In this document: positions 38,301-39,440 of the stretch, one piece after another
How the letters are laid out: each line of letters begins with the position of its first letter
Position numbering within the stretch: position 1 is the stretch's first letter
Assembly: GCA_002009975.1 (NCBI GenBank)
Contig: MTLP01000006.1
Location: 1 to 46,379, forward strand
DNA length: 46,379 bases
Direction: 5' to 3'
Source: Thermococcus sp. JdFR-02
GTDB taxonomy: Archaea; Methanobacteriota_B; Thermococci; Thermococcales; Thermococcaceae
Translations under genes and position numbers: made by a program
Notes under the pieces: model-generated
The model's database searches: none
The model's input: the letters and a program-made list of their open reading frames with translations, nothing else
Told to the model about the DNA's origin: nothing

Positions 38301-38651
38301 ATGGATGAAGAAGACTCGAGTAGTTTTTGGCTAATGAGAATTTTTAAATCGAGAAAAAGTAGAGAAGTTCTTGAGCAGAAAATTACGGATAAAGTATATG
38401 AGGATTTAAGAACCCTTTTAATGAGAGCAAAGCCCGAGGTGAAAGGAGATAAAATTATCTTAAGGCTTCCAAAGGGAGAAGTTATTCTCAGCAAAGGCAA
38501 TCTTAAGATTATTGCTGCAAACAGGGAAGAGGCTGAGAAGATATTAAGGAATCTCCACCACTACTCAATGCCACCAGGGTTATGGCCCGCGTATGGACTT
38601 AGCTATTCTATAAAAAGAGAATCATTCACAATGAGTAAAAGTAAGGTTTAA
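38301..38651 (+). CDS. Small hypothetical protein
   Basis: A 116-aa soluble, charged protein that I do not recognise. The centre alternates short strands (DKIILRLPKGEVILSKGNLKIIAA, residues 50-73) flanked by helices (EVLEQKITDKVYEDLRTLLMRA and EEAEKILRNLHHYS), suggesting a small alpha/beta fold. The C-terminus has a Pro/Trp-rich stretch (MPPGLWPAYGLSYS). The ATG follows GAGGAAAACT, and TATA-like CCTTAAAAAG lies near 38242-38251. A T-run just after the stop ends the unit before the sRNA gene. Confidence 0.72.
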   Translation: MDEEDSSSFWLMRIFKSRKSREVLEQKITDKVYEDLRTLLMRAKPEVKGDKIILRLPKGEVILSKGNLKIIAANREEAEKILRNLHHYSMPPGLWPAYGLSYSIKRESFTMSKSKV

Positions 38652-38665: not shown

Positions 38666-38698
38666 ACCTTCTTTGTCCTTTTTACTCCCAACCCCAAA

Positions 38699-38708
38699 GA
38701 TTTTAAGG
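38699..38708 (+). promoter_or_regulatory. Promoter of the C/D box sRNA
   Basis: GATTTTAAGG, preceded by CCCCAAA, is a BRE/TATA pair centred about 26 bases before the 5' stem of the C/D box sRNA, predicting initiation at about 38729. No other TATA-like element lies between the sRNA and the next gene, so this promoter may also serve the Cas4-like gene. Confidence 0.5.
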
Positions 38709-38730
38709 CTATCTACCTAAATTTAACTCA

Positions 38731-38786
38731 GCGGATGATGGACCTTGCCCAGTCTGAACAGTGATGACGTCGGTATTAGCTGACGC
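38731..38786 (+). ncRNA. C/D box guide sRNA (2'-O-methylation guide)
   Basis: All archaeal C/D sRNA parts are present in order: terminal stem GCG (38731-38733), C box ATGATGG (38735-38741, one mismatch to RUGAUGA), a 12-nt guide ACCTTGCCCAGT, D' box CTGA (38754-38757), a three-base spacer, a perfect C' box GTGATGA (38761-38767), a 12-nt guide CGTCGGTATTAG, D box CTGA (38780-38783) and closing CGC. The 12-nt spacers on both sides are the canonical length. By the D-plus-five rule the predicted modified bases are the U in CUAAUACCGACG and the second adjacent G of ACUGGGCAAGGU in target RNAs. The targets are not identified here. Confidence 0.85.
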
Positions 38787-38813
38787 TTTAGTTTTCCTTT
38801 AGGAGGAATAAAA

Positions 38814-39440
38814 ATGAGCGATGAACTTGTTGAGTTTTACGCGAGTGAAGCCCTAACATGCCCGAAACGAATTTATTATCGACTCAAAGGCTATCCTGAG
38901 AAATGGCCCATAACAGTTAAAAAAAGGCTTGATCAAGGGATTCAAGTTCATAACGTACTTGGGAGGATTTTAAAGGAGAGATTTAATTTTGAACTGGAGA
39001 AGCATATAATTCTAAAATCTTCCCGTTTGGGTTTTGAAATTCATGGAAGAATAGATGCCTATAATCAGTTTCCAATTGAGATAAAAGGTAAAACGAGCAT
39101 TCCAAAATTCCCCTTTGATTATCATTTGGCACAATTAAATATTTACATGCGATGGGCTGAAAGCGAATGGGGTTACCTTTATTATGTGCGGTTAACCAAA
39201 ACACCTGAACTTGTAAAGAAAACAATTGATTTTTCTCGCTTTCCTATTGTAAAAGGAAAAGGATTTAAGGCATTTGAAGTTCCCTACGATGAGAAGCTCT
39301 TTAAAGAAACAATTAAACATTTTTACATTATAAAGAAATACTATGAAAAAGACGTTCCTCCAAGAGGGTGGAACAACTATCTATGCAAATTCTGTCCCTA
39401 TTATTATCTCTGCTATGATGAAGATAATGGAAGAGATTAA
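38814..39440 (+). CDS. Cas4-like PD-(D/E)XK exonuclease with Fe-S cysteines
   Basis: A 208-aa RecB/Cas4-family nuclease. Active-site residues: H46 (VH), D81 in GRIDAY, E89 and K91 in IEIKGK, and Q107. Four cysteines, C16 near the N-terminus (LTCPKRIYY) and C191, C194, C200 at the C-terminus (CKFCPYYYLC), match the [4Fe-4S] cluster of Cas4. There is no CRISPR array, cas1 or cas2 in the window, so this is a solitary Cas4-like protein, probably in DNA repair or processing. The ATG has an AGGAGGAAT ribosome binding site just 28 bases after the C/D sRNA, so the gene is probably expressed from the same promoter. Its stop overlaps the MBL-fold gene by four bases. Confidence 0.88.
   Translation: MSDELVEFYASEALTCPKRIYYRLKGYPEKWPITVKKRLDQGIQVHNVLGRILKERFNFELEKHIILKSSRLGFEIHGRIDAYNQFPIEIKGKTSIPKFPFDYHLAQLNIYMRWAESEWGYLYYVRLTKTPELVKKTIDFSRFPIVKGKGFKAFEVPYDEKLFKETIKHFYIIKKYYEKDVPPRGWNNYLCKFCPYYYLCYDEDNGRD

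Follow-up and report, generated by a model that had tools for sequence, protein, structure and literature searches.

The window analyzed here, a stretch of 46,379 nt from a Thermococcaceae genome of 2.36 Mb, carries a box C/D guide sRNA (38731-38786, plus strand) followed on the same strand by a solo-cas4 nuclease gene (38814-39440). We consider it likely that the former is a conserved gene for a 2'-O-methylation guide with its own promoter, and that its transcript continues into solo-cas4. Direct support comes from the sRNA itself, from the pairing of its guides with the rRNA of four genera, from the position of the promoter, from the linkage of the two genes, and from the identity of the Cas4 protein. 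We infer, in addition, co-transcription, processing at the 3' side of the sRNA, and a dependence of cas4 output on the sRNA promoter. In the proposed sequence of events, RNA polymerase would start at approximately A38730, and the 5' end of the transcript would be that of the sRNA. L7Ae, Nop5, and fibrillarin would assemble on the sRNA, which would be released through a cut or trimming at its 3' side. The two guides would direct the predicted methylation of 16S rRNA G505 and U534, on the helix 18 strands at the decoding center, and the downstream product would be a cas4 mRNA that has a short leader and carries a Shine-Dalgarno sequence of its own.

The box C/D sRNA and its predicted 16S rRNA targets

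The Rfam family RF00095 (snoPyro_CD) matches exactly positions 38731-38786, a length of 56 nt, with 46.7 bits (gathering score 45; E 9.3e-7 for a search of the entire window). By direct reading, the sRNA has a GCG/CGC closing stem (38731-38733/38784-38786), a C box CGGATGA (38732-38738), a D' box CTGA (38754-38757), a C' box GTGATGA (38761-38767), and a D box CTGA (38780-38783). CGGATGA deviates from RUGAUGA but retains the core GAUGA. Four boxes, a terminal stem, and a spacing of about 12 nt are all present, as in archaeal box C/D sRNAs. The Rfam match, the boxes, and the stem thus bear out the original prediction of a guide sRNA between these very positions. The spacing it gave (C-12-D'-3-C'-12-D) holds for the 3-nt D'-C' spacer and the 12-nt C'-D interval, and needs correction between C and D', which are separated by 15 nt when the conserved C box is used.

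The sRNA sequence is single-copy in the genome, for which the same sRNA-family model yields a total of about 27 to 30 C/D candidates. A search with a model of the sRNA itself retrieved strong orthologues from each of the six Thermococcaceae genera and nothing from those other families of the class that were searched. Among 35 distinct orthologous sRNAs (66 loci), boxes and guide cores are invariant or nearly so, with GGATGA of the C box and TGATGA of the C' box unchanged throughout, whereas the D'-C' loop drifts. Such a pattern is expected of a guide under selection and not of a chance resemblance. On sequence grounds, we regard the sRNA as confirmed to be a genuine box C/D guide, predicted to bind L7Ae, Nop5, and fibrillarin. 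It resembles the Pyrococcus C/D sRNAs of RF00095 in its boxes, length, dual guides, and archaeal k-loop spacing, without any structural difference. A genome at the position of Pyrococcus (G004) possesses an orthologue scoring 56 bits; the window sRNA is an orthologous member of this family from another genus.

SSU and LSU models detected no rRNA gene in the assembly to which the window belongs, and targets were therefore tested on relatives, using rRNA operons from four related genera. The assembly is 99.99% complete, yet it is without a 16S or 23S match; the rRNA operon is probably missing from it. In the relatives, the D' guide CCUUGCCCAGU (38743-38753) pairs with 16S rRNA GCUGGGCAAGG (E. 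coli 501-511), and the D guide CGUCGGUAUUA (38768-38778) with UAAUACCGGCG (from E. coli 531), each by 11 pairs in helix 18, 10 of them Watson-Crick and one G-U. The guide words put forward originally were not matched exactly by any of the four rRNA operons and have to be replaced by these. E. coli numbering was anchored on the universal 515F site, where we take GUGNCAGC to mark position 515. According to the N+5 rule, 2'-O-methylation is predicted at Gm505 and Um534, two sites approximately 30 nt apart and on both strands of helix 18. The helix 18 target is identical in these four genera. When both guides were shuffled, not one of 3000 trials gave two sites within 60 nt of each other in a single rRNA operon that paired as well as those observed; this stricter control, which requires the observed pairing quality, supersedes a looser one that had given 7 of 300. 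The D' guides of the Pyrococcus-position genomes carry a U to C change at +1, which provides a better pair with G501.

Predicted methylation sites of archaea are known to cluster in helix 18, and dual guides to nearby sites have been described in other archaea (Dennis et al. 2015, PMC4644070). As in the helix 18 dual guides of Tte, Pca, Sac, and Iho, a single sRNA here serves nearby positions of this helix, but the positions differ: the known guides address A535 and G515 in three of these four, compared with the predicted G505 and U534 of the window sRNA (PMC4644070).

Promoter, transcript, and the solo-Cas4 gene

A BRE and TATA element, CAAAGATTTTAAGG, is located at 38695-38708 (TATA TTTTAA at 38701-38706). 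With a BRE/TATA matrix derived from relatives it scores 17.5 bits and ranks first of 46,379 plus-strand positions; the matrix was built from other species' copies of this very locus, and the rank thus shows conservation and is not an independent test. No site above 0 was found with this matrix inside the sRNA or in the spacer before the cas4 ATG at 38814, which agrees with the single upstream TATA element postulated at the outset. Thermococcus promoters have the TATA element centered about 27 nt upstream of a purine start that follows a pyrimidine (PMC5316973). At 27 nt from the TATA center of the window there is an A after a C, at 38730, the start predicted from the promoter match. It coincides with the 5' end of the sRNA, and the TATA center lies 23-28 nt from this end in nearly all loci. 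Thus, the earlier proposal that the sRNA is released from a 5' leader survives in a reduced form, in which no 5' processing would be needed and a cut on the 3' side would suffice.

By layout and promoter position, both read from sequence, the sRNA lies between the predicted start and a start codon on the same strand, 27 nt past the sRNA, which is preceded by a Shine-Dalgarno sequence AGGAGG (38801-38806); a similar motif stands before the start in relatives. One shared transcript for the sRNA and solo-cas4, as first suggested, would be the most economical reading, given an adjacency conserved across rearranged flanks. Between the two is a T-rich stretch (38787-38800) that could end some transcripts, with one terminator-like site compared with 0.9 expected. 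The free energy of general leader folding in the window was no better than that of shuffled sequences (z -0.08), and it supports no claim here. A weak UUUUCC/GGAGGA hairpin that would cover the Shine-Dalgarno sequence is not kept in relatives and was dropped. Further upstream, the window contains a 116-amino acid ORF (38301-38651) that is conserved in four genera and has no Pfam or NCBIfam match.

The arrangement is of a kind already known, since guide sRNAs occupy 5' leaders in T. kodakarensis. Jager et al. 2014 (PMC4247193) give 11 snoRNAs in 5'-UTRs there, presumably released by processing. The window locus would likewise place a guide sRNA in a leader, and its counterpart is at 58302-58357 of G024. 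In the main table of published T. kodakarensis circular RNAs the sRNA is not included, which is uninformative on its presence. According to the account of Tripp et al. 2017 in a review (PMC7994747), sRNAs can use the promoters of adjacent genes and share their transcript, and transcription of a reporter was lower when an sRNA overlapped a gene's 5' end. Compared with that account, the direction seems reversed here: the promoter accompanies the sRNA, and the passenger is the protein gene. If solo-cas4 expression does hang on the promoter of an rRNA-methylation guide, Cas4 output should follow ribosome synthesis and not infection.

The protein encoded at 38814-39440 (plus strand) is a PD-(D/E)XK nuclease of 208 amino acids. 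It matches NCBIfam TIGR00372 with 102.8 bits (cut-off 65) and is called Cas4 by PADLOC. Residues D81, E89/K91, and Q107 (RecB-type motifs) and the four cysteines C16, C191, C194, and C200 (Fe-S cysteines) are conserved in 65 orthologues. There is also a weak sequence match to PDB 4ic1, named as the Cas4 SSO0001 (PMC12538437). The gene has no cas genes among its neighboring ORFs and families, and a second Cas4 (CAS-Cas4) adjoins cas1 elsewhere in the genome (G000:C7:104406); the window gene is thus the solo form, in line with its initial description as a solitary Cas4-like gene. Each of the 74 good-quality Thermococcaceae genomes searched has a solo-Cas4, and this holds for the 12 among them in which no cas1 was matched. 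A solo-Cas4 of P. furiosus trims new spacers at their non-PAM end (PMC12538437).

Linkage of sRNA and cas4 across the Thermococcaceae

In 66 pattern-matched loci, the sRNA directly precedes cas4 and has the same orientation, and the other readable genomes, apart from three discussed below, agree by coordinates. The pair is kept in five of the six genera, in the face of changing neighbors: a metallo-beta-lactamase gene in the Thermococcus-like genera, and HTH-CBS-like and phosphodiesterase-like genes in Pyrococcus-position genomes. In one Thermococcus genome (G046), a tRNA-Thr lies about 8 nt or less upstream of the sRNA, and the pair is intact. At this locus (L149, 1403-1540, minus strand) the tRNA-Thr(UGU) just before the sRNA would likely give a tRNA-sRNA-cas4 transcript. 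In a Pyrococcus-position genome (G004, L074, 1227-1499), the H/ACA RNA HgcF is encoded divergently at about 50 nt from the sRNA.

An alternative is that sRNA and cas4 are neighbors only, the sRNA ending in the T-rich tract, cas4 having its own unrecognized promoter or start, and the adjacency reflecting a lack of rearrangement. The spacer following the sRNA is indeed T-rich in the window, and it varies between genera in both length and sequence. Many sRNAs of this genome, moreover, lie just upstream of genes: for about 10 of 27 C/D candidates, a same-strand ORF starts no more than 100 nt downstream (by rough ORF calls), and so the layout is common and adjacency is not unusual in itself. Against this, nothing resembling a promoter separates the sRNA from the ATG. 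The T-rich tract is not conserved across genera, the spacer being GC-rich in Thermococcus and very short in Pyrococcus-position genomes, and the linkage outlives the changes on both flanks. Independent neighbors therefore appear quite improbable to us, and we favor an sRNA gene whose transcript would continue into cas4.

The exceptions among readable Thermococcaceae loci are three genomes of one genus at the position of Palaeococcus. Here cas4 is found without the sRNA, in two of the three beside the same metallo-beta-lactamase gene as in linked relatives, and the sRNA is located elsewhere, adjoining L35Ae-like and ASCH-like genes (named by eye). A similar BRE/TATA element precedes the sRNA even with no cas4 behind it, and the promoter thus seems to be the sRNA's own. 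Either an sRNA gene with its own promoter gained cas4 downstream, or this genus lost the linkage. These genomes also bear on the idea that the element is a cis-acting structure of the cas4 leader which merely resembles a guide RNA, a reading that Jager et al. 2014 (PMC4247193) raise for some leader-encoded predictions. In the present case we consider it extremely improbable, because the sRNA occurs without cas4 in the Palaeococcus-position genomes and because the cores of its two guides, which pair with helix 18, are invariant.

A candidate kink-turn in Thermococcus leaders

In Thermococcus in the narrow sense (genus g4), the stretch from the sRNA to the Shine-Dalgarno sequence contains a hairpin of the form GGGGCGG-N-GA-GG-UUCGCGGG-CC-NAU-GA-N-CCGCCCC. 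It fits a kink-turn, with tandem G-A pairs, GC stems, and a 3-nt bulge whose last base is U. The NAU-GA/GA-GG core is invariant; 97.5% of the stem cells are paired compared with at most 63.8% when the alignment is slid, and three pairs are changed on both sides, although in few events. A model of the hairpin has exactly one match per genome in 56 genomes, all of this genus and, by coordinates, always in this leader: G024 (L060, 58262-58304, minus strand) and 55 further genomes (L116-L145) have the kink-turn before the solo-cas4 Shine-Dalgarno sequence. The same model found no such hairpin in the window organism or the other five genera, and a scan of one Thermococcus leader against Rfam returned no match for it at E 1. 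We propose the hairpin as a candidate L7Ae site on cas4 mRNA, the least expected result to come from the sequences. In the literature searched, we found no published link between Cas4, L7Ae, and C/D RNAs. Whereas the arrangement of sRNA and cas4 is real but known in kind, the candidate kink-turn is a lineage-specific addition, and L7Ae control of cas4 in Thermococcus is put forward as a testable proposal.

A stronger form of the explanation we prefer, and one compatible with it, is that the amount of solo-Cas4 is set by loading of L7Ae and other C/D proteins onto the leader or, in keeping with the initial suggestion, by the cut releasing the sRNA, with the Thermococcus kink-turn acting as a second L7Ae site. 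The restriction of the kink-turn to this one leader, its invariant core, and the two-sided stem changes would suit such control, as would the finding that L7Ae represses its own mRNA via leader kink-turns (PMC5539422, PMC6298567). Most Pyrococcus-position genomes have 15-21 nt between the end of the sRNA and the start codon, a distance at which the sRNP and the ribosome would compete. On the other hand, the window organism and the other genera are missing the hairpin, and L7Ae kink-turn control in this form cannot apply to the window organism. We regard control of Cas4 amount by these means as unlikely. It is distinctly unlikely, in our estimate, that the leader couples the supply of ribosome-modification RNPs to a DNA nuclease, such that free C/D proteins, L7Ae first, would choose between a guide RNP and open Cas4 translation, with the Thermococcus kink-turn reinforcing the choice.

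In l7ae mRNA leaders (PMC5539422, PMC6298567), the kink-turn is located just upstream of the Shine-Dalgarno sequence, as in the solo-cas4 leaders of Thermococcus. The kink-turn of the latter differs in the gene concerned, in a long GC stem that excludes the Shine-Dalgarno sequence, and in its absence from the window organism; unlike the l7ae-leader switch, this GC-rich stem should fold without L7Ae. A further point against control of Cas4 is that the sRNA of Palaeococcus-position genomes (L146, L147, and L148) also has a long GC-rich hairpin downstream; this hairpin shows compensatory changes, is not a kink-turn, and has no cas4 behind it. It is thus possible that the Thermococcus hairpin began as part of the sRNA unit.

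The automatic count of sRNA-to-start spacing was set aside for Thermococcus, as it catches an AUG inside the kink-turn. In some leaders of this genus, for example L039, this AUG (within GAUGA) is in frame with cas4, and a possible alternative cas4 start would overlap the kink-turn in some species.
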